From: Patescibacteria group bacterium
GTDB taxonomy: Bacteria > Patescibacteriota > Microgenomatia > UBA12405
Assembly: GCA_013387215.1 (NCBI GenBank)
Contig: WARW01000010.1
Span: 1-48,324 of the forward strand
Direction: 5' to 3'
DNA length: 48,324 bases
Positions 27,909-40,673 of the stretch are shown one piece after another. A program made the translations under genes and the position numbers. The notes beneath the pieces are model-generated. The model was not told where the DNA came from, searched no databases, and worked only from the letters and a program-made list of their open reading frames with translations. Numbering within the stretch: position 1 is the first letter of the stretch; every line of letters begins with the position of its first letter.

Positions 27909-28223
27909 CTACAAATTTTTTCGCGGTATTAATTTATAAGCCATTGTTATATCTTTTGGCTCATCTTTCTGTTTATAAATAAAGGCTAATTTCCTTCTGT
28001 CAAAAATTTTAAAGAAATCTTTCCATGACACTTCTTTTGTTTGAACCGCATCGTTCATAAATCGTTCGTCATTTTTACCTCCGAAATCAATCCTAATTCC
28101 CAGTTTATCTGCTCCAGCATTTGGATCATCAAAAACTGCCGGTCGACCATGGTGGTTTTCTGCCCACTTTATTATTTCTTTATGATCCCAAGTTACCTTA
28201 TCATCCGGATTTGAAAAAAACAT
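27909..28223 (-). CDS. Small conserved hypothetical protein (WAENHHGRPA family)
   Basis: A 104-residue soluble protein. I recognise the layout of a small family found in many bacteria: T-x-D-H-x-x-I-x-x-W-A-E-x-x-x-G-x-P-A, then I-R-I-D-F, then I/V-S-W-x-x-F-F-x-x-F-x-x-x-x-L-A-x-x-Y. Here these are TWDHKEIIKWAENHHGRPA, LGIRIDFGG and VSWKDFFKIFDRRKLAFIY. Members are sometimes labelled 1,4-alpha-glucan branching enzyme, which the length rules out. Function unknown. It starts 4 nt after the yqaE-like gene on the same strand, so the two are probably co-transcribed. Confidence 0.75.
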   Translation of the reverse strand: MFFSNPDDKVTWDHKEIIKWAENHHGRPAVFDDPNAGADKLGIRIDFGGKNDERFMNDAVQTKEVSWKDFFKIFDRRKLAFIYKQKDEPKDITMAYKLIPRKNL

Positions 28224-28227
28224 AATT

Positions 28228-28398
28228 TTAACGAATACTTAATACTATCCACAAAGCATGAACTATTCCCGGAACATAACCCAAAAGAGTTAATATTACA
28301 TTCAACCAAAATTGTGAAGTTAAACCAACTTTTAAATATACTGCGGCTGGCGGCAAAACAATAGCTAATATTAATTCAAGTAAATTTACTGTCACCAT
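28228..28398 (-). CDS. YqaE/Pmp3 family membrane protein, missed by ORF track
   Basis: A 56-residue gene too short for the track. Translation: MVTVNLLELILAIVLPPAAV, then YLKVGLTSQFWLNVILTLL and GYVPGIVHALWIVLSIR. This is the UPF0057/Pmp3 pattern (LPP-x-AV-x-L-x-x-G...FW-x-N-x-x-L-T-x-L-G-x-x-P-G-x-x-H-A), two membrane helices. Relatives affect membrane potential and salt or cold tolerance in yeast and plants. A TATAAA lies just upstream of the ATG. The gene at 27909 follows after 4 nt. Confidence 0.9.
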   Translation of the reverse strand: MVTVNLLELILAIVLPPAAVYLKVGLTSQFWLNVILTLLGYVPGIVHALWIVLSIR

Positions 28399-28537
28399 AA
28401 TTTATAATTAATATCACCAATATTAATTTTTGTTTGTCATAAGATCGTTAGATTTACGTAAGAGTTAAATGAAATATTATTTGGTAATTCTCAATAATTT
28501 GCACTCAAAGATAATTTAATTTAAACTATATCAATAT

Positions 28538-29095
28538 ATGACAAAGAAAATTTTTGCTTTGATCCTTGTTTTGACTATTATTTATACGATTTTTAAAATT
28601 CACGAATTCACCCAACCTTCACCCACAGCCATTCCCTCGACATCAACTCCAACTTTAGCATCGATAAATTATTGTAAACCTCAAGATCTTGCTGCATCAG
28701 TAACTCTAGGACCTGCAGCAGGAAATATTTATGGAGATTTTCAAATCACCAATTCTTCAAATCAAATGTGTCAAATAGTAGGCACTAATTATGTTTTAAT
28801 AAGTTATGACCAAATAAGAAACAACAATATAAAAGTTGTTCATCAACCTCAGACTATGCAAAGTATTTTTCAATTAAAACCAAATGATTCTGTATATGCC
28901 AAAATTCATTATCCAAACGGTCCACAATGCAACGGTCCAACAAAATCAGTTAATATTAGCTTTTCATATCAAATTTCTCCAGACCAAACTGTAATCTTTA
29001 AAAATCCTAATCAAAACTTTCCTCTTCAAGCCTGTGTTTCAGCCGACATAACACAAATCGATCTGTCTGGATTTTCCACCCAAAGTCCTCAGTAG
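28538..29095 (+). CDS. Exported DUF4232-like protein
   Basis: A 185-residue protein with an N-terminal membrane/signal segment (KIFALILVLTIIYTIF), a P/S/T-rich linker (TQPSPTAIPSTSTPTLAS) and a beta-sandwich domain. The domain has the DUF4232 traits: NYCKPQDLAASVTLGPAAGN, GDFQITNSSNQMCQIVGTNYV, and a late QACVSADITQIDL. The cysteines at both ends could form a disulfide. Such domains sit outside the cell, and their function is unknown. TATATC is 5 nt before the ATG (leaderless). Confidence 0.72.
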   Translation: MTKKIFALILVLTIIYTIFKIHEFTQPSPTAIPSTSTPTLASINYCKPQDLAASVTLGPAAGNIYGDFQITNSSNQMCQIVGTNYVLISYDQIRNNNIKVVHQPQTMQSIFQLKPNDSVYAKIHYPNGPQCNGPTKSVNISFSYQISPDQTVIFKNPNQNFPLQACVSADITQIDLSGFSTQSPQ

Positions 29096-29112
29096 TTAGG
29101 TATAATTGAATC

Positions 29113-29397
29113 ATGAAAAAAGAAGTGTTCCAAATATCCCTTATCGTCTTTATTTTCGCGCTATTTTTAAGTCTTTATTCAATATGGCAAATTTCTCCCA
29201 TATCTTTCAGATTATTTAATGGTATATGCGAAAAATTCAGCTATAACGATTGCATGGTTTTTTATTGGAATCAAAAATCATACTACCGAATTCTAATGTA
29301 TATTTTCTCCAGTATTACTGTTATTAGTGCTGTTTTAGCTCTTGTTTCTTTTTTCAAAAGAAAACCGCAAAACCTACCCAAACATGCTAAAAAATAA
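29113..29397 (+). CDS. Small two-helix membrane protein
   Basis: A 94-residue protein with helices at about 7-25 (ISLIVFIFALFLSLYSIWQ) and 62-81 (ILMYIFSSITVISAVLALV) around a soluble loop containing two cysteines (GICEKFSYNDCMVFYW). No family recognised. It has a very clear leaderless promoter: TATAAT at 29101-29106, 6 nt before the ATG. The PAP2 gene starts inside its 3' end. Confidence 0.6.
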   Translation: MKKEVFQISLIVFIFALFLSLYSIWQISPISFRLFNGICEKFSYNDCMVFYWNQKSYYRILMYIFSSITVISAVLALVSFFKRKPQNLPKHAKK

Positions 29398-30010
29398 GTT
29401 ATTCTTAAAAGCTGCAATTTCATTAGGGCTTTTTTTGTGTCTGAGTTTATTTTTGATGCTCTCTCCTCACCAACAACTGGACCTTGATTTAACAGAATTT
29501 ATTCAGAATCACACCCCTATGGCTATTGATAATATTCTAGCCTTGTTCAGTATTTTAGGAAATTTTGAAATAATCACCATTCCTTTTCTTTTAAGCTTAC
29601 TCTTATTTAAAAACATTCGCACCAAAATAGGCATCTTCATTGTCTATGTAATTGGTTTATTGATTGAAGCTTTTGGGAAATATTTTCTTAATCACCCTGG
29701 CCCTCCTTTGAATTTCTATCGAAACGATCTTCATGTTATTTTGCCAACCTCTCGGGTAATTTTAAATTATTCTTATCCTTCTGGCCATAGTTTTCGGATT
29801 AGTTTTTTAGTTATGTTGCTTTTTTATTATTTGCAGCAAAAAAAACCAAAACACCTCTGGATCTATAACTCCTGTTTATATGTTTTGCTTATCGTTATGT
29901 TGTTGTCTCGCGTCAGCCTTGGCGAACACTGGTCAAGTGATGTGCTTGGTGGTTTTCTGCTCGGTTCAGGTCTAGCTTGGTTAAGCTTATATCTCTATAA
30001 TAAGGCATGA
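29384..30010 (+). CDS. PAP2 family membrane phosphatase
   Basis: The track's start at 29342 is a TTG in the previous gene; the ATG at 29384 (MLKNKLFLKAAISL, 208 aa) overlaps it by 14 nt. It is a six-helix PAP2/undecaprenyl-pyrophosphatase-like enzyme. The three phosphatase motifs are GKYFLNHPGPP (motif 1), SYPSGHSFR (motif 2, with catalytic His) and SRVSLGEHWSSDVLGG (motif 3, with nucleophile His). Motif 1 normally ends in RP; the Arg is Gly here. It may dephosphorylate a lipid carrier or phosphatidate at the outer face of the membrane. The next gene overlaps it by 4 nt (ATGA). Confidence 0.85.
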   Translation: MLKNKLFLKAAISLGLFLCLSLFLMLSPHQQLDLDLTEFIQNHTPMAIDNILALFSILGNFEIITIPFLLSLLLFKNIRTKIGIFIVYVIGLLIEAFGKYFLNHPGPPLNFYRNDLHVILPTSRVILNYSYPSGHSFRISFLVMLLFYYLQQKKPKHLWIYNSCLYVLLIVMLLSRVSLGEHWSSDVLGGFLLGSGLAWLSLYLYNKA

Positions 30011-30582
30011 CCATTAAATCCAATAATATTTTCACTCCCCAAGGGATTCTAGAAGAAGTTGAAAAAGATCCAAAATTAGACTTTTTAATGAATATTTTTA
30101 ATATCCCTAGAGCCTTTGGTGTCAGCGGTTTTGGTGGCAATTGGGATGTTGGCCGCCACTCCTACGCTACAGCATTAGTAGCTATTTTCTGGTCGAAATT
30201 CAATGAATATGCTGATGAAAAAAGAAATAAATTAGTTGTCATGGCGCTTTTGCACGATCTTCACGAAGCCGTAACAGGGGACATCTTACCTATGTTCAAA
30301 ACCGATGAATTAAGAAACAAACTTGACGATATTCAAAATAATATTTTAGCCGCTCTAAAAGTTGATTTCGATCATGCCTTAGAACCCGATCTAAAAATTT
30401 GTGATTTAGTTGCTTTTTATTACGAAATCAAACAAGTATCACCCAATATTCTTCATCCCAACAAACTTAATCTAGCCAATCTTATGGCTACAAAACAAAT
30501 TGATACTATCTTGGCTTATTGTGAAAAGAACAATCTCGAAACTAAAAAAATCAAAAACTTTTTGAAATATTTAGAAGTATAA
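30007..30582 (+). CDS. HD-domain phosphohydrolase, YfbR-like
   Basis: A 191-residue HD-superfamily protein. Metal ligands are H51 (DVGRHSYATA), H83-D84 (LLHDLHEAVTGDI) and D133 (LKICDLVAFYYE). H-A/E-V-x-TGD after the HD pair is typical of the 5'-deoxynucleotidase YfbR and related enzymes that hydrolyse dNMPs, so a nucleotidase role is a fair inference. It overlaps the PAP2 gene by 4 nt and is translationally coupled to it. Confidence 0.82.
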   Translation: MTIKSNNIFTPQGILEEVEKDPKLDFLMNIFNIPRAFGVSGFGGNWDVGRHSYATALVAIFWSKFNEYADEKRNKLVVMALLHDLHEAVTGDILPMFKTDELRNKLDDIQNNILAALKVDFDHALEPDLKICDLVAFYYEIKQVSPNILHPNKLNLANLMATKQIDTILAYCEKNNLETKKIKNFLKYLEV

Positions 30583-30658
30583 AAATCACTGATCTCATAA
30601 TCAAGTTTTTACAAAATATTTACGAAAATATTATTTTTGTTTAATAGTATAAACAAAT

Positions 30659-30961
30659 ATGATTTTTAAAGAAAAGGTCTACGAAATAACCAAGAAAATT
30701 CCTAAAGGGAAAGTTGCCACTTATGGTCAAATTGCCAGAATTGCCGGCAAACCAAAAGCCTCTCGGGCAGTTGGTTTATTTATGAAAACTAATCCTAATG
30801 CACCACTTACTCCCTGTCATCGAGTGGTCGCTTCCGACGGCAAATTAACTGGTTATTCTGCTGGAAAAGGCATTACTACTAAAAAAGAAATGCTGATTTC
30901 TGAGGGAGTTAAATTTATTGGCGACAAAGTTGATTTAAAAACTTCTCAATGGCAAAATTAA
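30659..30961 (+). CDS. ogt: O6-alkylguanine-DNA alkyltransferase, catalytic domain only
   Basis: A 100-residue protein covering only the C-terminal domain of Ogt/MGMT. It has the helix-turn-helix IPKGKVATYGQIARIAGKPKASRAVG and the active-site loop TPCHRVVASDGKLTGYSAG. Cysteine 53 in PCHRV is present, so it is a potential suicide alkyltransferase, not an alkyltransferase-like protein (which has Trp there). Conventional Ogt has about 70 more N-terminal residues. TATAAA is 5 nt before the ATG. Its stop interlocks with the GIY-YIG gene (TTAA). Confidence 0.92.
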   Translation: MIFKEKVYEITKKIPKGKVATYGQIARIAGKPKASRAVGLFMKTNPNAPLTPCHRVVASDGKLTGYSAGKGITTKKEMLISEGVKFIGDKVDLKTSQWQN

Positions 30962-31206
30962 CCTGAAATCATTTTTTCTTTTTCTTTCTTGGTCATTCTT
31001 TTTATTTCCCATTCTCTTTTTAAAGCCAAAGATCTTGTCAGCCATTCTTCCAAATAAACAAGCTCAAAATCATTAAAACATTTCATGTATTTAGCCGACT
31101 TTACGGTTTTACTTTGATGCTCTTTCAATCTTCTTTCCAGATTATTCGTTTGCCCGGTATACAACGTATTTTTTGAAGTTCTCAAAATATATACAAAAAA
31201 GCTCAT
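30958..31206 (-). CDS. GIY-YIG domain protein (UPF0213/YhbQ-like)
   Basis: An 82-residue single-domain GIY-YIG protein. The motif is FVYILRTSKNTLYTGQTNNLERRLKEHQSKTVKSAKY, with the catalytic Arg and Tyr, followed by LEEWLTRSLALKREWEIKRMTKKEKE, where the glutamate after the Arg helix would bind metal. Stand-alone members of this group are presumed DNA nucleases, with unclear roles. It is convergent with ogt, overlapping by 4 nt. Confidence 0.92.
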   Translation of the reverse strand: MSFFVYILRTSKNTLYTGQTNNLERRLKEHQSKTVKSAKYMKCFNDFELVYLEEWLTRSLALKREWEIKRMTKKEKEKMISG

Positions 31207-31254: not shown

Positions 31255-31722
31255 TTAATAACCCTTTGGTGGCCGTTGTAATGCTCCAAATGTTTTAACT
31301 TGTAAAGCACAAGTGAAATCATAAATTTTCTTTACTTCTCTTCGGACAAATTCCACATCTTCACCATTTCTTTTCATTTCTCCTAAAACATATTTTATGG
31401 ATTTATCATAATCATTTTTGAATTTTTGATTAATATTTTTCCAATATATCTCTTTAAATATTTGCAATAAACTTTTTTCGTAGGGGATTCTGCCGATTAG
31501 CATTAAATAGGCAATCATCGGGTAACTTAAAGTTTTCGTAAAAAAAGCAGCGTTATCATTTGACATGATACTTCCTATCTTTGGATCATATTTTATGTCA
31601 TACACTTTTTCTCCCGAAGAGGAATAACACTTAGCATTATTGCCGTTTATTTCAATTCTATTGTCGGCAATAGCTGTCAATGCTTCATAAACTTTTGAAA
31701 TATGCGGCTTTTTCCAGATCAT
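31255..31722 (-). CDS. Hypothetical protein downstream of the ABC operon
   Basis: A 155-residue soluble, mostly helical protein I cannot place. Notable stretches are ISKVYEALTAIADNRIEING, KYDPKIGSIMSNDNAAFFTKTLSYP and QVKTFGALQRPPKGY at the C-terminus. It starts 8 nt after the ATPase gene's end. The ATPase stop codon TAA forms part of a TAAAAT that lies 5 nt before this ATG, so it may also have its own leaderless promoter. Confidence 0.6.
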   Translation of the reverse strand: MIWKKPHISKVYEALTAIADNRIEINGNNAKCYSSSGEKVYDIKYDPKIGSIMSNDNAAFFTKTLSYPMIAYLMLIGRIPYEKSLLQIFKEIYWKNINQKFKNDYDKSIKYVLGEMKRNGEDVEFVRREVKKIYDFTCALQVKTFGALQRPPKGY

Positions 31723-31730
31723 TACTTATT

Positions 31731-32501
31731 TTAGTTCAATAATTCCAAAATTCTTGCTTCTAGTTTGGCAAACTCTGGCAACAGCCTTGTCTTTAAAAGA
31801 CTTTCTTTTTTAATCAATTTTATGGAAAACTTTTTGATTATTTTTCCGGGGCTTCCTGACAATACAATTATTTTATTTCCTAAAAATATGGCTTCTTCGA
31901 TATTGTGGGTCACAAATATCATGGTTTTTTTAGTTTTTTGAGAAATATCAATTATTTCCTTATAAATTGAAGCTTTTGTAATTGGGTCTAATGAAGCAAA
32001 TGGTTCATCAAACAAAAGAACATCCGGATCGCAACTTAGGGCTCTGGCAATTCCAATTCGTTGCTGCATACCACCCGATAATTCGTGAGGATAATTATCC
32101 TTAAACTTTTCTAATTTAACTAAACGCAAATATCTTAATGCTTCAGTCTGAATTTGGTTCTTGGGAATTTTTTTTGACTTTAAAACAAATTCAATATTTT
32201 GGAGAGCCGTCTTCCAAGGAAACAAAGAATAATTTTGAAAAATAATCACTCTTTGATTGGAAGGTTTTGAAATCAATTTGCCTCTATGATAAATTTCTCC
32301 ACAGCTAGTTTTATTTAAACCAGAAATCAAGGATAAAAGTGTTGATTTGCCACAGCCAGATGGTCCCAAAATACATACAATTTCACCCTCTTTAACTTTA
32401 AAACTCACACCATCCAATGCTTTTACGGTTGTCTGATTATTATTTTTATATATCAAACCAACATTTCTGACATTAATAATTGATTTTTTCTTTAAGACCA
32501 T
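31731..32501 (-). CDS. ABC transporter ATPase, nitrate/sulfonate/taurine type
   Basis: A 256-residue ATP-binding subunit of the SsuB/TauB/NrtD class. Walker A is GPSGCGKST (46-54), the Q-loop is IIFQNYSLFPWKTALQNI, the signature is HELSGGMQQRIGIARAL, Walker B is DVLLFDEPFASLD, and the switch histidine is in MIFVTHNIEEAIFLG. The order permease-ATPase with a 10-nt overlap, plus the binding protein upstream, makes a complete importer with the radical SAM gene in the middle. The substrate cannot be read from the ATPase. Confidence 0.92.
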   Translation of the reverse strand: MVLKKKSIINVRNVGLIYKNNNQTTVKALDGVSFKVKEGEIVCILGPSGCGKSTLLSLISGLNKTSCGEIYHRGKLISKPSNQRVIIFQNYSLFPWKTALQNIEFVLKSKKIPKNQIQTEALRYLRLVKLEKFKDNYPHELSGGMQQRIGIARALSCDPDVLLFDEPFASLDPITKASIYKEIIDISQKTKKTMIFVTHNIEEAIFLGNKIIVLSGSPGKIIKKFSIKLIKKESLLKTRLLPEFAKLEARILELLN

Positions 32502-33232
32502 TTGACTAGTTTATTTTTTAATAAAACCATTAAATTATCCATCAAAAGACCGATTAATCCAATTGTAATCATGCCCACAATCACCTGATCCAATCTCAGC
32601 ATTTGCTGTCCAATCGTAATAAGATAGCCCAAACCAGTAAATGATGTCACCATTTCTGCTGCCACTACTGCCATCCAGGAAAAACCAATTCCCACCCTAA
32701 CTCCAGATAAAATATAAGGCAGTGAAGAAGGAACAATAACGTTTGTTAAAATCATCAATTTATTCGCTCCAAAACAACGTGCCACATCAAGATGTTGCTT
32801 AGATACATTTTCAACACCTGTTAAAGTGTTAAGGAAAACAGGGAAGAAAGCTGCAATCATAGTAATAAAATAACTCAGCCGGTCGCCCACCCCAAACCAC
32901 AAAATTGCCAATGGAATCCACGCAATTGGAGGAATAGGACGCAAAAAATTTATAAAAGGCGAAAAAATTGCTTTAGCTTTCTTATTCACTCCTAAAAATA
33001 AACCCAATGGCACTCCTGTAATTAACGCAATGATTAAACCGACTAAAACTCTCTTTAAACTAAATAAAATATCCAAGCCCATTTCGCCGCTTAAAACCAT
33101 ATTTACAAATGTTAAAAATATGGTTGAAGGTGAAGGCAAAATTAACTGGTTAAGAAGATGGGCTCGACTTGATATTTCCCAAATAGTTAATACTAATATA
33201 ATCAAAAACCCTCTCCAAAAGGTATTTTTCAT
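32492..33232 (-). CDS. ABC transporter permease, SsuC/TauC type
   Basis: A 246-residue inner-membrane permease with about six helices. The coupling (EAA) loop is VSKQHLDVARCFGANKLMILTNVIVPSSLPYILSGVRVGIGFSWMAVVAAEMV. The N-terminal part has LPSPSTIFLTFVNMVLSGEMGLDILFSLKRVLVGLIIALITGVPLGLFLG, characteristic of the sulfonate/taurine/nitrate group. Its start overlaps the end of the radical SAM gene by 4 nt, so the operon is translationally coupled. Confidence 0.92.
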   Translation of the reverse strand: MKNTFWRGFLIILVLTIWEISSRAHLLNQLILPSPSTIFLTFVNMVLSGEMGLDILFSLKRVLVGLIIALITGVPLGLFLGVNKKAKAIFSPFINFLRPIPPIAWIPLAILWFGVGDRLSYFITMIAAFFPVFLNTLTGVENVSKQHLDVARCFGANKLMILTNVIVPSSLPYILSGVRVGIGFSWMAVVAAEMVTSFTGLGYLITIGQQMLRLDQVIVGMITIGLIGLLMDNLMVLLKNKLVKWS

Positions 33233-34701
33233 TTTATTTTTCTTGATTCTTCTAGAGCTTTGCCTTTTTTAAATTCGACAGGTTTATCAAGATAAACATT
33301 TTCCTCAAGCTCGTAATTGTATGGTCTTTGTTCAATCATGGTATTGACCGCATGATAGGCATATCTCAATTGTTCTTTAGTTAAATACTTCGACATGCTG
33401 ATAAAACCAGGTCTATCAATATCTTCTTCAACTGATTCTTCAGTCGACAGCCAATACAAATGAGCCAATTCATCTTTTATAATTCCGTCTTTAAGGGCCT
33501 GACGATAAAGTGCAGTTCCAGGAATAATTGATAAATATTTTACTCGGGTAATTTCCTTAAATTCTTTACAAAATTCGATTAAATTATCTATCATTTCCTG
33601 TGTTTCGTCTGGTGCGCCTACAATTAAAAGTCCACCGCATTTTATGCCTGATTCACGGGTAAGATTAATAGTATTCAAAATTGCATGTTTTGTGGTGCCT
33701 TTACGGTAACAATCTAAAACGTCTTGTGTAATTGATTCAAATCCATACAAAATCAAATCGCAGCCTCTTTCCTTCATGTGTTTCAAAACTGGCAAATCCA
33801 CTCCAACTGCTCTAGCAAAACAAATCCATCTATGTGGATGCGCAGGAAAAGCTTCATCTAATAGTTTGTGGACAAATTCTTTGTCTGTCACAAAAGTTAA
33901 ATCATTCCACCAAGCAAACTTAAAGTTATATTTTCCTAAATATTCAAGTTCGCGTTTAACCCGGTCAATTGATTTATATTTTAACTTTGGCATTGGCCGA
34001 TAACAAAATGCACAATTGCAAACACATCCGCGAGAATAACTCAAAAATATTTCTGGAATATCTTTTCCTTCATACATTTCCCAAACAGAAAAATCTTGAA
34101 AGGGGACTGCATCTAAATTATCCATTTGTTCTCGCTCTTTATTTAAAACCAATTTATGATCTTTGTCATACCATGCAAGTCCATCAATTTCCTCAATTGC
34201 TTTGGCAAATTCATTTTTAGAAAGATAGTCCATTAATTCAGTCAATGTTAATTCGCCTTCGCCAACTACAGCATAATCAGCCACCGTATTCTTCATTATC
34301 AATTCTGGAGCCGAGGTCACTAAAGGACCACCTAAAATAATCGTACAGTTTGGATTTTCTTTTTTAGCAATCTCACAAGCTGCCTTAATATAGGGGAAAT
34401 TATCCTCATAAGTAGAAATTCCAATAATATCGTAATCCTTAAGCTTTCCCACTAAATCGTTTGCATCTTTAATCGCTCTTTGATCAAAAAGTCTAAAACC
34501 ATAACCAAGTCCTCTAATTAATGAGGCAATAATAGATGGACCTTCAAATGGTGCTCTATGAGCCCATTCCCATCCACAAGGCATCACAAAAGGTGATGGG
34601 GGAACAATTAATCCATACTTAATTTTACTAGTTACTTTGGCTTTATCTGGCAATGGCAAAGCCAATAACCTTTTATAAGTTAACGTTTCAGATGGCAACA
34701 T
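33229..34701 (-). CDS. B12-binding-type radical SAM enzyme
   Basis: A 490-residue class B-like radical SAM protein. The N-terminal half (about 55-165) has the Rossmann-like B12-binding fold: PSIIASLIRGLGYGFRLFDQ, YDIIGISTYEDNFPYIKAACEIAK, CTIILGGPLVTSAPELI and DYAVVGEGELTLTELMDYL. The DxHxxG cobalamin motif is absent. The radical SAM core starts at FLSYSRGCVCNCAFCYRP, with 4Fe-4S ligands C226, C230 and C233. The SAM-barrel continues through LILYGFESITQDVLDCYRKGTT. A strong SD (AGGAGG) precedes the ATG. It lies between the binding protein (11 nt upstream) and the permease (4-nt overlap), so it belongs to the transporter operon. The reaction (methylation, tailoring or rearrangement) is unknown. 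Confidence 0.88.
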   Translation of the reverse strand: MLPSETLTYKRLLALPLPDKAKVTSKIKYGLIVPPSPFVMPCGWEWAHRAPFEGPSIIASLIRGLGYGFRLFDQRAIKDANDLVGKLKDYDIIGISTYEDNFPYIKAACEIAKKENPNCTIILGGPLVTSAPELIMKNTVADYAVVGEGELTLTELMDYLSKNEFAKAIEEIDGLAWYDKDHKLVLNKEREQMDNLDAVPFQDFSVWEMYEGKDIPEIFLSYSRGCVCNCAFCYRPMPKLKYKSIDRVKRELEYLGKYNFKFAWWNDLTFVTDKEFVHKLLDEAFPAHPHRWICFARAVGVDLPVLKHMKERGCDLILYGFESITQDVLDCYRKGTTKHAILNTINLTRESGIKCGGLLIVGAPDETQEMIDNLIEFCKEFKEITRVKYLSIIPGTALYRQALKDGIIKDELAHLYWLSTEESVEEDIDRPGFISMSKYLTKEQLRYAYHAVNTMIEQRPYNYELEENVYLDKPVEFKKGKALEESRKIK

Positions 34702-34712
34702 AAATCCTCCTT

Positions 34713-35738
34713 TTATTGCTGTTTAGTGTATGTTGGCACATCAACTAGCTTATTTATTAATTTTTGATCGAATAAGAATTTGGAAGTATCTTGCAATTTT
34801 GCAGTCAAAGCTGGTGAAATTGAAATATTAATATCTTCCGCCTTAGTGACATTGTAATTCACATTTTTAGGCGAGACTTGCATGATTAAGTTCTTGTCTA
34901 ATTTTGAATTATCGCTATACCATTGAGCCACTTGGTCTTTGTTTTGAGTCAAATAAAATGCAGCATCTTTAAGTGAGGCATTTAATTGAGCCACAGCTTC
35001 AGGATGTTTGTCTGCAAAATCTTTAGACATAACTGTCACCAGATCCATATCCGTATCTTTCAAAACTCGATATTGGTCTTTGTTGAGACCATCGGTCACA
35101 AACGGATCCCATAAAAGAGCCGCATCAATTTGTTTTGAGGCCAAAGCGGCTCTGATTGAAGCAGCATCAGGAAGATTGACCAAATCAATATTTTTTCCAG
35201 GTGTTAATCCAGCTTCTTCGACCCATTGAACAGCTGGTTTATGTGGAGAAGTTCCAAAGATTGTTCCAAGCTTTTTATTTTTTAAATCTTTAATTTCTTT
35301 AAACTTAGAATCTTTATTGACAACTAATGCCATTTTACCGTCAGCACCGAGCGAATCTATAGCATATGCATCAAAACCTTGTCCCACTAAAACTAAATAA
35401 ACCGATTCGCTGCAAAGCATTACATCTGCTTGATTGGAAACCATAGCCACTTTCATTTCTTTTCCTGTTCCATAAGCAGTAACTTTTGCATCTAATTTAT
35501 TATTTTTTAAAATTTCTGACTTTTGCAAAATAGTTCCAATTTGTCCAGTATAAACCGTTCCTAAAGCAGGATATGCAACATTTATTTTTGTTAAATCAGA
35601 TTTAGGAGGTACTTGTTTAGTCTTATAAGATTTATTGTCATTAAATTTTATAAATCCGACTATTGCAGCTAAAATTAATATAACCGCAAAAATACGAAAA
35701 TTATTTTTTGGAGGGGTTTGTATTATTTCATTTTCCAT
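34713..35738 (-). CDS. ABC substrate-binding protein, SsuA/TauA (NMT1) type
   Basis: The track's TTG start (35768) overlaps the promoter. The ATG at 35738 (MENEIIQTPPKNNFRIFAVI) is 7 nt after a TATATT and gives a clean N-terminal anchor (RIFAVILILAAIVGFIKF, about 15-32). The 341-residue protein has the family marks INVAYPALGTVYTGQIGTILQKSEI, AYGTGKEMKVAMVSNQADVMLCSE, LVVNKDSKFKEIKDLKNKKLGT and SIRAALASKQIDAALLWDPFV. It is membrane-anchored, not a lipoprotein, so it probably faces outward on a single-membrane cell. First gene of the radical SAM/ABC operon. Confidence 0.9.
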   Translation of the reverse strand: MENEIIQTPPKNNFRIFAVILILAAIVGFIKFNDNKSYKTKQVPPKSDLTKINVAYPALGTVYTGQIGTILQKSEILKNNKLDAKVTAYGTGKEMKVAMVSNQADVMLCSESVYLVLVGQGFDAYAIDSLGADGKMALVVNKDSKFKEIKDLKNKKLGTIFGTSPHKPAVQWVEEAGLTPGKNIDLVNLPDAASIRAALASKQIDAALLWDPFVTDGLNKDQYRVLKDTDMDLVTVMSKDFADKHPEAVAQLNASLKDAAFYLTQNKDQVAQWYSDNSKLDKNLIMQVSPKNVNYNVTKAEDINISISPALTAKLQDTSKFLFDQKLINKLVDVPTYTKQQ

Positions 35739-35795
35739 ATTTCCCAATATATACCTTCTATATATCAATGTCTAGCCCTTCTCTATTTTGATAAA

Positions 35796-36359
35796 TTAAT
35801 TACACTTCAAACTTGAAATAAAGTCATCAATTTTTTTATTTATATCAGAAGAATTTTTGTCTAAAAAATATTCTATTTGATACATACTTTTATTTTTTTG
35901 GCAGTAAATATATCCGATAGCTCCCTGATAAACCAACTGATCTTTTATACATGATCCAAATTGATAGCGGCTATTTAAATATGCTTTAAAAAATAAATTA
36001 TTATTTATATATACTTCTCTCGGTTTAAATTCATCTGCACATCCAGTTACATTTGATACCTCTCCAGGATATGGAGCAATATCATTTTGAAATAATTTTT
36101 GAAATTGATTTGCTTTTGTTTTTATCAAAGAATCAGCATCTTTAGCCTCAATTTTTTTATTAATTTCCAATCTCACATAATCGTTATCGAATTGATAAAG
36201 ACCTCTAAATGCTTCGGAGGAATTTTCATAAACATCATTAAGCTTATATTTTTTTTGATCAAGAAAATATATTCCGGATTTATTATCCATTTTATATAGT
36301 ACAAATGATATAACAGTAATCAACAGGATTAAAACAACTATTATCTTTTTTATATTCAT
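35796..36359 (-). CDS. Membrane-anchored hypothetical protein
   Basis: The track's start at 36371 uses a TTG in the divergent gene; the ATG at 36359 (MNIKKIIVVLILL, 187 aa) is better. Residues about 4-22 form an anchor. The outside domain (LDQKKYKLNDVYENSSEAFRGLYQF...) has two or three cysteines (C near 110, 135, 152 and a C-terminal LKCN) that could pair. No known family. Its start codon and that of the sulfatase-like gene are separated by one base (CATAATG), so the two genes share their promoter space. Confidence 0.6.
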   Translation of the reverse strand: MNIKKIIVVLILLITVISFVLYKMDNKSGIYFLDQKKYKLNDVYENSSEAFRGLYQFDNDYVRLEINKKIEAKDADSLIKTKANQFQKLFQNDIAPYPGEVSNVTGCADEFKPREVYINNNLFFKAYLNSRYQFGSCIKDQLVYQGAIGYIYCQKNKSMYQIEYFLDKNSSDINKKIDDFISSLKCN

Positions 36360-36360
36360 A

Positions 36361-37674
36361 ATGGTAATCAAGAAACGCTACTATTGCCTAATTATATTAC
36401 TATTTATTTTAGTACCTGTTTTGGCGTTATTTTTTAAGAATAAAAACGACATAAAAGCTTTAGAAAACTATCGTTGTCCTGATTGTAATGTCGTTTTAAT
36501 TTCCGTCGACACTCTCCGAGCCGATCATTTATCTTCATACGGATATCATCTTAACACTACTCCTAATATCGATAATTTTTTTAAAAACGGCGTTTACTTT
36601 AAAAACAATACATCAGCTAGTTCTTGGACACTGCCCGCCACAATGAGCATTATGACTGGATTGTTACCCAGCAATCATCATTTAACCAACAAACTTACGA
36701 TTGATGATAAAAACGGCAATGTTGAAGATATGACTTTAAAACCAGGTATTAAAACCATTGCTGAAATATTAAAAGATAATGGCTATAAAACTGGTGGTTT
36801 TACAGGAGGAGCTGGAGTTGATCATAGTTTTGGATTTGACAGGGGATTTGATGCTTATTTTGATAAAAATAATTTTGGCGGATTTTCTGATTCAATTAAC
36901 GAATCACTGAAATGGTTAAAAGAAAACAAGGATAATAAAACTTTCATTTTTTTGCATGGCTACGATGTCCACGGACAATTCCCAGTAAACTATGACAAAA
37001 GATTCGTCAAAAATTATAAAGGTAATTTAACTGGCTGTATTGAAGAGCAAAAATCCCTAAGAGAAGAAGGTTTATTTAATAAAAAAATTTCCCTGACTAA
37101 AGACGATGTTAAATTTTTGGTTGCACTTTATGATGAAAAAATCCAAAGGATGGATGAAAACTTAAATCGTTTTTTTGAAGAATATTCAAGAATCACCAAC
37201 AATAAAAAAACTATTTTTATTCTTGTTTCAGATCACGGTGATGAATTTTATGAACATGGTGAAATCGATCATGGACACAGTTTATATGACGAACTAATTA
37301 ACGTTCCTCTAATAATAAAACTACCCGATCAAAACAATAAAATAGAAATCACAAAAAGAGTCAGTTCACTTGATATTCTTCCCACTATCACCAATATTTT
37401 GAAAATCTACACACTCGACAAAATCGACGGCATTAATTTATTTTCCAACACCAAAAACAACCGCCAGATAATATCAGAAACTGAATATCGATATGTAGTA
37501 AATTTAAGGTCAGTAAAATCTGAAAATGGCTGGAAACTAATCGAAGATCTCACCAACAGAAAAAACCAGCTTTTTAATCTTATCTTCGATAAAAAAGAAA
37601 ATAACAATATTTATAGTACAGTTAAAAAATACGACAGGCAGCTAATTGACAAACTTAACACTTACTTTTTTTGA
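36361..37674 (+). CDS. Sulfatase-like membrane-anchored hydrolase (Thr nucleophile)
   Basis: A 437-residue alkaline-phosphatase-superfamily protein with an N-terminal anchor (about 8-25). Core motifs: VVLISVDTLRADHLSSYGYH (metal site), SSWTLPATMSIMTGLLPSNHH (nucleophile region), IFLHGYDVHGQF and ILVSDHGDEFYEHGEIDHGHSLYDELINVPLIIK (metal-binding Asp/His). Where sulfatases have the C/S-x-P-x-R formylglycine motif, this one has T90-L-P-A-T. It cannot be a formylglycine sulfatase and more likely acts on phosphate or phospho-diester bonds, as in LPG or teichoic-acid-related enzymes. It overlaps the convergent transporter gene by 20 nt. Confidence 0.82.
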   Translation: MVIKKRYYCLIILLFILVPVLALFFKNKNDIKALENYRCPDCNVVLISVDTLRADHLSSYGYHLNTTPNIDNFFKNGVYFKNNTSASSWTLPATMSIMTGLLPSNHHLTNKLTIDDKNGNVEDMTLKPGIKTIAEILKDNGYKTGGFTGGAGVDHSFGFDRGFDAYFDKNNFGGFSDSINESLKWLKENKDNKTFIFLHGYDVHGQFPVNYDKRFVKNYKGNLTGCIEEQKSLREEGLFNKKISLTKDDVKFLVALYDEKIQRMDENLNRFFEEYSRITNNKKTIFILVSDHGDEFYEHGEIDHGHSLYDELINVPLIIKLPDQNNKIEITKRVSSLDILPTITNILKIYTLDKIDGINLFSNTKNNRQIISETEYRYVVNLRSVKSENGWKLIEDLTNRKNQLFNLIFDKKENNNIYSTVKKYDRQLIDKLNTYFF

Positions 37675-38593
37675 TTATTTTAGAAACAAAGAAAGGGCTG
37701 AACAAAACTGAATGGGCAACAAATCCTAATGCTGGAGCAATAGCCGCCTTCGGGCTATAAAGAAGTAATACTGTGGACGCAATAGCAATATTTTTCATTG
37801 ATGTTGAAATCACCATCGAAAGACCTGTTTCATTAGATTTAAATAAACTGGAAATTGGTTTTAAAAATAAAAATAAATAGAAGTCCTGAACAAATGAAAT
37901 TAATAAAATAAATATAATATTTTGAATATCAGCATGTCCTAAAGGTAAGCGTTTAAACGAACTGCCAAATTGGATAAAAATTAAAGTGGATAGGATAAAA
38001 AAGTTCAATATTGGTAATGAATTTTTTATGAAATTGAAAATTACCGGAAGAAATTTTCTAATAAGAATAGACAATAAAATAGGCAAGGGGACTAAAATTA
38101 AAATATCCTTAAAAAGTAAAATACTAGGGATGTTTAGGTTATTTCCCATAAGTAACAACAGAATCAAAGGAATAACAATTGGTGATAAAACCATTGATGA
38201 AATCAAAAATAAAAACGAATTATTTTTATCGGCTTTGTAGTGGTTGGTAAAAAATGGAGCGACAGCTGCAGCCGGAGTTAATGCTGAAAAAACCAGACCA
38301 TATATGTATTGATCATCGGTCAGCAAAAGTTTGGCAAAAATCCAAACCACAAACGGACTTAAAATAAATATTAAAAAATTCGTAAAAAGTAATGGTTTGA
38401 AACCTGGAAAATTTTGTTTTAGCTGTTTTATATCAATAGTAAATCCGCTTAAAAACATTAAAAAGAATAATAAAAAAATTCCGTATGGGCTAAGAGAAAA
38501 AGCGGTATACTGAAATTTGAAACCTAAAATAATCGCCAAAAAAACGCCCAGACCGAAATATTTAGATAATAAATTATTTAGTTCTTTATACAT
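37655..38593 (-). CDS. Bile acid:sodium symporter family (BASS/SBF) transporter
   Basis: A 312-residue multipass protein with the SBF/BASS layout of about ten hydrophobic segments. Family sequences are LMFLSGFTIDIKQLKQNF, GLVFSALTPAAAVAPFFTNHYKADKNNSFLFLISS and SMVISTSMKNIAIASTVLLLYSPKAAIAPALGF, corresponding to the two Na+-site crossing helices. The substrate in bacteria ranges over bile acids, pantoate, sterols and other organic anions. It shares a palindromic -10 with the divergent phosphodiesterase gene and overlaps the sulfatase-like gene at its 3' end. Confidence 0.85.
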   Translation of the reverse strand: MYKELNNLLSKYFGLGVFLAIILGFKFQYTAFSLSPYGIFLLFFLMFLSGFTIDIKQLKQNFPGFKPLLFTNFLIFILSPFVVWIFAKLLLTDDQYIYGLVFSALTPAAAVAPFFTNHYKADKNNSFLFLISSMVLSPIVIPLILLLLMGNNLNIPSILLFKDILILVPLPILLSILIRKFLPVIFNFIKNSLPILNFFILSTLIFIQFGSSFKRLPLGHADIQNIIFILLISFVQDFYLFLFLKPISSLFKSNETGLSMVISTSMKNIAIASTVLLLYSPKAAIAPALGFVAHSVLFSPFFVSKIIKKSKC

Positions 38594-38621: not shown

Positions 38622-40673
38622 ATGATAAAGACATTAAGAATTGTATTTTTAATTGTTTTGGTTATGGGAAGTGTTTTTGCTTTTACTAAAAATAACAGCA
38701 ATAATAACGATCGAAAATTAAAATTATATTGGTTTATACCTGATGGTTTAAGAAACGATCCTGATATTTTTACTGTCTACAAATGGGCTCAAGAAGGTAA
38801 ACTTCCCAATATAAAAAAGATGATGGATAAAGGTTCTTATGGTTATTCGATTCCTGACTTTCCATCTCATACACCCACAAATTTCTCAACATTATTAACA
38901 GGGGATCATCCTAATACTCATGGTATTTCCGACGGAGCTATTCGGGTTGAAGGTTATCCACTAAATGTCTCTGCCATTAGCGGTTTTAAGGCAAATTCTA
39001 AATGGACAGATGCTGCTTGGACAATATTTGAAAAAAATAAATTAAAAACATTTTTATTATCGATTCCTGGTTCAACCCCTCCTGAGATGTCAAAAGGTTG
39101 GACAGTCAGAGGCAGATGGGGTGGTTGGGGAGCCGACTTTTACGCTATAAATTTCCAAGATAATTCCGATATAAATGATAATCAGTTAACCAATAAAAAT
39201 AATCGTCTTTTTAAAAATGGACCAGAATTAACCGAAGTCACCAATTCTTATCCTCAAAAAACTCAAATTGAAAATCTGAAATCGTTTTCGCCTGTTAAAG
39301 AAATCTCTCTAGATGCTTGGGATAATAATGCTCTGGGTTTTATTACCGATTCCACTGATGATAATAAAATTAATTACGATACTTTATCTATTTCTTTTGA
39401 TAAAAAACAAATTGCTGTTTCATTAAAAGCTGATCAATGGTCAGACTGGACACCTATAAAATTAAAATGGCGCACCAGAGATGATTTTAATTTATACACA
39501 CCCCAAAAAACTGAACTGGAAAAAGAATATGCCACTATTGATATTAATACCAACGTAAAAATAAAATTAATTCGATTAACTGAAGACGGTAAATTTAGAA
39601 TTAGATTTCTTTATAGTATTTTGAATAATACCCTTACTTCTCCTGCAAATTTAGCCGACGATCTTAATAAAAATGTTGGGCCGATGGTGGATTTTGCTGA
39701 TAATTTTCCGCCTCAGCTTGTATATTATCCCGAAGACAAACAAACCTTTTTAGACGAAGCCAATATGTCTTTAGATTGGCACAAGAAAGCCGCTTCTTAC
39801 ATAATTGATAAATATAAACCAGAAGTATTTATTCAAGATACTTACACTTCTAATCAAATGTTAACTTCCAAATGGTGGACAGGTTATCTCGATCCGGCCA
39901 GCCAAAGATATAAAGATATTACCGATGCTGACAGAGAAAAATTATGGAATGAAGTTAAATATATGTACCAAAAACTTGATGCCGTTATTGGTGAAGCCAT
40001 GAGTAAGGCTGATGATAAAACCACAATTGTATTTTCCTCAGACCATGGAGTGGCTGCTCTAAACAAAGAAGTTTATTTGAACAATTTATTTGCTCAAAAA
40101 GGCTGGTTAACAATTAAATATGATGAGAAAAATAAGATCTACGACATTGATTGGGATAAAACCAAAGTCGCCTTTTTAGAAAATACAAACATATATATTA
40201 ATCCAAAAGGTCTAGGTGGAAATTGGAAAAGAGCCTCTGGCGATGATTATGAAGCCTTAAGAAATGAGGTCATAAAAACACTCACCGAACTGAATGATAA
40301 TAATAATTTTCCTTTGGATAAATATGCTAAATGGGAAGACAGTGAAACTGTTTTTGGTCTGCCAAAATCACAATCAGGCGATATTGTTCTTGCCAACAAA
40401 ATCGGTTATCAATGGACAGAAGAAGTAACTAAAAATGGTGAACTGTTCAAAACACCATTGAAGTCTGGCTACAAACAGGGGATTATGGCAAAAGATCAAA
40501 AAGCTCTTTGGACTTCTTTTGTCATCATGGGACCAAATATAAAAAATAATTACGAAATAAAAAATCCCATTTCCAATGCCGACCAATTACCGACGATACT
40601 AAAATCAATCGGTATTAAAAGTAATGATAAATTTGATGGAAAAGTAATCGAAGAAATATTTAAAAACAACTAA
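38622..40673 (+). CDS. Type I phosphodiesterase/alkaline phosphatase family protein
   Basis: A 683-residue exported or anchored enzyme with an N-terminal hydrophobic segment (about 5-21, LRIVFLIVLVMGSVFAF). The catalytic core has LYWFIPDGLRNDP (metal Asp), IPDFPSHTPTNFSTLLTGDHPNTHGI (nucleophile Thr84 by alignment with nucleotide pyrophosphatase/phosphodiesterases) and TTIVFSSDHGVAALNKEVYLNNLF (Asp-His metal site). The middle (about 230-330) is a beta-rich insertion (WDNNALGFITDSTDDNK...LKADQWSDWTPIKLKW). Substrate unknown; with the sulfatase-like gene it makes two extracytoplasmic phosphatase-fold enzymes beside one anion transporter. Leaderless -10 at 9 nt. Confidence 0.85.
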   Translation: MIKTLRIVFLIVLVMGSVFAFTKNNSNNNDRKLKLYWFIPDGLRNDPDIFTVYKWAQEGKLPNIKKMMDKGSYGYSIPDFPSHTPTNFSTLLTGDHPNTHGISDGAIRVEGYPLNVSAISGFKANSKWTDAAWTIFEKNKLKTFLLSIPGSTPPEMSKGWTVRGRWGGWGADFYAINFQDNSDINDNQLTNKNNRLFKNGPELTEVTNSYPQKTQIENLKSFSPVKEISLDAWDNNALGFITDSTDDNKINYDTLSISFDKKQIAVSLKADQWSDWTPIKLKWRTRDDFNLYTPQKTELEKEYATIDINTNVKIKLIRLTEDGKFRIRFLYSILNNTLTSPANLADDLNKNVGPMVDFADNFPPQLVYYPEDKQTFLDEANMSLDWHKKAASYIIDKYKPEVFIQDTYTSNQMLTSKWWTGYLDPASQRYKDITDADREKLWNEVKYMYQKLDAVIGEAMSKADDKTTIVFSSDHGVAALNKEVYLNNLFAQKGWLTIKYDEKNKIYDIDWDKTKVAFLENTNIYINPKGLGGNWKRASGDDYEALRNEVIKTLTELNDNNNFPLDKYAKWEDSETVFGLPKSQSGDIVLANKIGYQWTEEVTKNGELFKTPLKSGYKQGIMAKDQKALWTSFVIMGPNIKNNYEIKNPISNADQLPTILKSIGIKSNDKFDGKVIEEIFKNN

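Follow-up and report, generated by a model that had tools for sequence, protein, structure and literature searches.

Why should the gene for a cobalamin (B12)-type radical S-adenosylmethionine (SAM) enzyme lie inside an operon for an ATP-binding cassette (ABC) importer? The question is raised by a 48,324-nucleotide stretch of DNA from a Patescibacteria group bacterium (contig WARW01000010.1), analyzed here at its full length and called the window, in which the enzyme gene stands between those of a substrate-binding protein (SBP) and a permease. An earlier note, made from the sequence alone, took the tight coupling of these genes to imply that the imported compound is the enzyme's substrate, cofactor, or product. 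The enzyme and importer genes form an operon, their association recurs in other phyla, and the radical SAM gene and a nearby phosphodiesterase-like gene are absent from close relatives of the host. Our preferred reading, to which we give about even odds, is that the locus, whose core genes are listed below, is a horizontally acquired import-and-modify module. A search of the open-access literature found no description of a radical SAM–importer arrangement.

34713–35738, minus strand: SBP of the SsuA/NMT1 family with a probable N-terminal membrane anchor (341 amino acids; NMT1_2/SsuA-like domain match)
33229–34701, minus strand: B12-binding-domain radical SAM enzyme (490 amino acids; PF04055 and PF02310)
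32492–33232, minus strand: ABC permease (246 amino acids; BPD_transp_1, 6e-27)
31731–32501, minus strand: ABC ATPase (256 amino acids; ABC_tran, 1e-33)

Recomputing the layout reproduced the earlier gene order and spacing exactly: an 11-nt gap separates the SBP and radical SAM genes, the latter overlaps the permease gene by 4 nt (ATGA), and the permease and ATPase genes overlap by 10 nt. An upstream TTG at 35768 is a possible alternative start for the SBP. Promoter and terminator scans gave counts not above those in shuffled sequence.

The radical SAM protein carries PF04055 at residues 221–378 (5e-16), a PF02310 B12-binding domain at 81–156 (5e-15), and CxxxCxxC at residues 226–233; its sequence has no DxHxxG motif. 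The motif and Pfam searches agree in these respects with what had been read from the sequence before. Absence of DxHxxG is usual in cobalamin-dependent radical SAM enzymes; in many of them, cobalamin is bound base-off and no His ligand is used (PMC13331322, PMC8828468). By its core motif and N-terminal Rossmann domain, the enzyme falls within the cobalamin-dependent radical SAM class, and use of cobalamin is predicted. HpnJ, BchE, and PhpK share the N-terminal B12-binding domain and CxxxCxxC core, but the window enzyme is linked to transport rather than to hopanoid, bacteriochlorophyll, or phosphinate genes. Identity with any of the three was rejected, as every NCBIfam score fell far under its curated cutoff (best, HpnJ, TIGR03471, 139.8 bits against 577.6; PhpK, 98; BchE, 79); the enzyme likewise falls in no curated housekeeping subgroup, an assignment that by the earlier note would have refuted its proposal. 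Orthologs 52%–53% identical occur in L023, L024, and L060–L065, and the close ones share a conserved N-terminal motif, GWEWxHxAPFEGPS.

Is the pairing of enzyme and importer conserved? Scanning genome contigs with the single radical SAM sequence found no relative; a degenerate-alignment scan recovered 53%-identical orthologs in an Elusimicrobia metagenome-assembled genome (MAG; L023) and an Omnitrophota MAG (L024). Searches for loci of this radical SAM family covered 294 Elusimicrobiota and 285 Omnitrophota genomes, and 24 loci, including the window and L114, were compared. The importer adjoins the enzyme in nine of them (the window, L023, L060, L066, L074–L077, and L114). L023 has the order methyltransferase, radical SAM, SBP, permease, ATPase, "sulfatase"; L023 and L060 are 52%–53%, 39%, 51%–52%, and 45%–46% identical to the window in radical SAM, SBP, permease, and ATPase, respectively. 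In the reverse direction, the SBP clade was located in 340 Elusimicrobiota genomes, with E<1e-100 counted as close. Ten genomes had a close SBP, and in eight the same radical SAM family lay beside it, within a few kb, a linkage whose probability by chance is roughly 3e-14 if shared ancestry is ignored; the other two (L115 and L116) have another B12-type radical SAM gene within ~3 kb. Weaker SBP matches (~1e-46) occurred in L115, as a tandem copy, and in L117, where the gene is unlinked.

Gene trees agree with this picture. The window groups with L023, L060, L061, and L024 in the radical SAM tree (100/96) and with L023 and L060 in the permease tree (86/83), where the linked clade, including L115 and L116, is separate from E. 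coli SsuC and TauC (89/91). The pair thus recurs, in differing gene orders, in at least three Elusimicrobiota lineages as well as in the window, so the conserved neighborhood whose absence would have told against the earlier proposal is present across phyla. In L024, a member of the same radical SAM clade, a tripartite tricarboxylate transporter replaces the ABC importer, and transport itself is therefore the likely partner of the enzyme; this TctA/TctC-type replacement suggests a small organic anion as the ligand. Several importer loci of diderm hosts also encode an entry route, either a TonB receptor (L023 and L060) or an OprO/P-type porin (L074, L076, L077, and L114). Other products encoded repeatedly at the compared loci are a class I methyltransferase, Thr-nucleophile enzymes of the alkaline phosphatase superfamily, a phosphodiesterase-like protein of 650–680 amino acids, and a small anchored protein with weak similarity to hyp191 of the window (35796–36371). 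Separately, HemN-like radical SAM genes and EmrE/DMT-like transporters flank importer-type loci in three Elusimicrobiota genomes (L097, L125, and L127).

What the importer might carry can be approached through its subunits. A single hydrophobic segment lies at the N terminus of the SBP (residues 14–32), and the protein, whose sole Cys is residue 109, lacks a lipobox; it is thus probably anchored by that segment, in line with the earlier description of a membrane-anchored protein that is not a lipoprotein. Domain and family searches place SBP, permease, and ATPase within the SsuABC/TauABC superfamily, with scores under the curated cutoffs (SsuA_fam, 109 against 163.5; TauC, 154 against 342; SsuC, 141 against 347; TauB, 205 against 357). 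Among NCBIfam models, the ATPase scores best against SaoA and the permease against SaoP; identity with the Sao transporter was rejected because all scores are under cutoff (224 of 360 bits for SaoA, 218 of 295 for SaoP, and 35 of 300 for the SBP against SaoX). The proteins linked to the radical SAM family show 35%–40% identity for the Elusimicrobiota SBPs, 51%–52% for the permeases of L023, L060, and L066, and 40%–46% for the ATPases; the top-listed plasmid-borne homologs are more distant, at 29% (SBP) and 42% (permease).

A comparable gene arrangement occurs on a plasmid of Deltaproteobacteria bacterium Smac51 (CP026658.1; L022), where two B12-type radical SAM genes precede SBP, permease, and ATPase genes, with an APS kinase also present. 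Its radical SAM proteins are 26%–27% identical to that of the window and sit on long branches, and its permease groups with SsuC; the cluster was accordingly rejected as an ortholog and is regarded as an analogous arrangement. The two radical SAM genes there are near-duplicates, and the locus also holds genes for PPDK, a MobA-like nucleotidyltransferase, and an AMP-binding protein of the acyl-CoA ligase family.

The binding pocket bears more directly on specificity. In TauA, the sulfonate is held by Gln30, Gly61, Gly79, and Thr132 and the amine by Glu106, Thr132, and Asp205 (PMC6906117); SsuA makes equivalent sulfonate contacts (PMC3839906), and the Gln30Ala substitution lowers TauA affinity ~2000-fold, from 1.6 nM to 3.5 µM (PMC6906117). 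The window SBP has Pro57, Gly92, Ser110, and Ser164 at the four sulfonate positions. The changes of Gln to Pro and of Gly79 to Ser, the latter followed by a conserved Glu, are found in all 10 aligned SBPs of the linked clade; the Gly61 equivalent is kept in the window and nearly all others, Thr/Ser is kept at the Thr132 position, and both amine ligands, Glu106 and Asp205, are missing. Invariant residues of the clade are Pro57, Ser110, Glu111, Ser164, and His166. Judged from these aligned residues, the linked SBP clade has its own conserved pocket, and with two of the four contacts to sulfonate gone, the ligand is unlikely to be a plain alkanesulfonate. The designation "sulfonate/taurine-type" in the earlier note therefore applies to the superfamily and no further.

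These residues also bear on the proposal that the locus is an anaerobic counterpart of ssuEADCB, in which release of sulfur from an imported sulfonate would fall to the radical SAM enzyme in place of the O2-dependent monooxygenase SsuD. The importer belongs to the same ABC superfamily as those of ssuEADCB and tauABCD, and E. coli ssuA, ssuD, ssuC, and ssuB show the identical order of SBP, enzyme, permease, and ATPase, with the catabolic enzyme gene likewise between SBP and permease. However, the ssu and tau enzymes are a monooxygenase and a dioxygenase; hydrolases are attached to the window system; the linked SBPs all have Pro in place of the Gln that contacts sulfonate, and Ser in place of Gly79; genes for sulfate activation and for sulfotransferases are present in sister loci; and we know of no B12-dependent radical SAM desulfonase. 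We consider this proposal improbable.

Equally little probability attaches to the idea that the importer supplies a corrinoid, or a precursor of one, as the enzyme's cofactor rather than its substrate. The B12-binding domain would fit such a role, and hosts with small genomes usually lack B12 synthesis. Yet the SBP resembles SsuA/NMT1 proteins and not BtuF, and an Rfam search in and near the operon returned no match and so no cobalamin riboswitch. Six other matches to this radical SAM protein exist in the window genome, and often more in those of Elusimicrobiota, but the importer is associated mainly with one family, most members of which are without it.

Beyond the four core genes, the surroundings in the window indicate how far the system extends.

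31255–31722, minus strand: 155-amino-acid hypothetical protein, a backbone gene of the host genus, outside the module
35796–36371, minus strand: hyp191, a small membrane-anchored extracytoplasmic protein with no family assigned and weak homologs elsewhere
36361–37674, plus strand: "sulfatase" of the alkaline phosphatase superfamily (Thr nucleophile motif WTLPA)
37655–38593, minus strand: transporter of the BASS/SBF family (bile acid:Na+ symporter), flanked by the two hydrolase genes
38622–40673, plus strand: type I phosphodiesterase-like protein, pde683 (PF01663; Thr nucleophile, SHTPxNF)

The operon probably begins one gene earlier than the SBP, at hyp191. This protein has no Pfam match; weak homologs (23%–29% identity, 43–70 bits) occur in L063, L071, and L074–L077, mostly beside pde683. 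The divergent plus-strand genes are part of the same recurrent neighborhood: the "sulfatase" shares 40% identity with the product of the final gene in the L023 operon, and pde683 has homologs of 42%–46% identity in L023, L063, L064, L066, and L074–L077. The former has Thr at the nucleophile position and does not match the formylglycine motif C/S-x-P-x-R, and no aligned homolog has Cys there; a formylglycine (type I) sulfatase was rejected on the Thr nucleophile. Whether the BASS transporter belongs to the module is uncertain, and the other compared loci contain no homolog of it.

At the opposite end, the 155-amino-acid protein, which the earlier note counted as the fifth gene of the operon, is native to the host genus. 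Counterparts with 74% and 69% identity occur in two other genomes of that genus (G003 and G007), and in both the genes to the left are those found in the window (PPDK, RsmI, LexA, a transglutaminase-like protein, and others). To the right of the gene, G007 has other genes and no operon, and the G003 contig ends after ~250 bases. Because the gene is syntenic in both genomes and stands without the operon in G007, it belongs to the host backbone, and the block from 31731 onward is inserted beside it. Of the earlier proposal, the functional coupling of enzyme and importer is supported and the five-gene extent is not. Window positions 27909–31000, between the left-flank genes and the 155-amino-acid gene, hold extra genes absent from G003 and G007, which makes this spot variable within the genus.

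Absence from relatives was assessed by separate searches with the radical SAM and pde683 genes of the module. Among 56 relatives, the radical SAM enzyme has no counterpart above ~33% identity, the best two matches lying in loci with glycosyltransferase- or methyltransferase-type neighbors, and matches to pde683 are short and weak (31% over 127 residues at best); across 379 genomes of the phylum, the radical SAM search gave no match at E<1e-40. Because close counterparts of both genes are missing from the sampled relatives, the block is read as an acquired module, and horizontal acquisition is supported by this absence. GC content across the block is a steady 0.30–0.34. An acquired block would also be expected if the genes were chance neighbors or had merely been transferred together, with no common pathway; the overlapping genes and the recurrence of the pair in several lineages, in different orders, make this explanation very improbable.

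Several observations weigh against an import-and-modify function. Fifteen of the 24 radical SAM-family loci are without this ABC importer, and 12 of those 15 carry sulfation genes, in varying subsets of CysD, CysN, APS kinase, two PF13469 sulfotransferases, and an ADI-family protein; because most loci do without the importer, import is a variant, and the system may be biosynthetic. Sulfotransferases and an ortholog of the cluster methyltransferase are missing from the window genome. AlphaFold models built from two to three sequences (predicted local distance difference test scores of 52 for the radical SAM protein and 37 for the SBP) were too poor for inspection of the pocket.

These loci favor the main rival explanation, a biosynthetic module in which the importer supplies a precursor, the radical SAM enzyme and methyltransferase build a methylated (elsewhere sulfated) surface or secreted compound, and the surface enzymes are tailoring transferases. 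In L061–L065, L069, and L071–L073, the same radical SAM family occurs with a class I methyltransferase, PF13469 sulfotransferases, and an ADI-family protein, mostly also with APS kinase and/or CysD/CysN. Importer and sulfation genes are mutually exclusive: sulfation genes occur in none of the nine importer loci within the stretches read, nor in the further flanks of five of those contigs, as against 12 of the 15 others (Fisher p=3e-4, with no phylogenetic correction). A radical SAM–methyltransferase fusion in L064 points the same way. Against this explanation, the missing sulfotransferase and methyltransferase in the window genome count once more, no scaffold-building enzyme is seen in the clusters, and an exported product would make an importer odd. 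On balance we find it unlikely. The sulfation cluster itself looks like an undescribed pathway for a sulfated natural product or surface modification. The L064 fusion (L064:9449-11623; 724 amino acids) is a second B12-type member of the family and is followed by a phosphodiesterase-like gene.

Under the import-and-modify reading, the two externally anchored Thr-nucleophile enzymes would cleave a phospho- or sulfo-ester; the anchored SBP would capture the small organic anion so freed, and the permease and ATPase would import it, as the families of these proteins suggest. The cytoplasmic radical SAM enzyme would then act on the imported molecule or an immediate derivative, most likely, from its family, by C-methylation. 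In diderm relatives, the outer-membrane TonB receptor or OprO/P-type porin would complete the import route, and a SAM methyltransferase would work alongside the radical SAM enzyme. A fuller scenario, which we advance tentatively as possible, is that the genes belong to an undescribed pathway, in which an SsuABC-like importer with a new ligand supplies B12-dependent radical SAM enzymes of a new family, that the anion is imported or made by sulfation depending on lineage, and that the import half jumped into an ultra-small bacterium without the methyltransferase or sulfotransferases.

Most of the many B12-dependent radical SAM enzymes have no known substrate. For one such family, the fixed link with a dedicated importer opens a direct route to the substrate, through the ligand of the SBP. 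The "import or sulfate" alternation seen in Elusimicrobiota and Omnitrophota points to an uncharacterized sulfated or methylated metabolite, which may pass between uncultured bacteria, including one with a very small genome.

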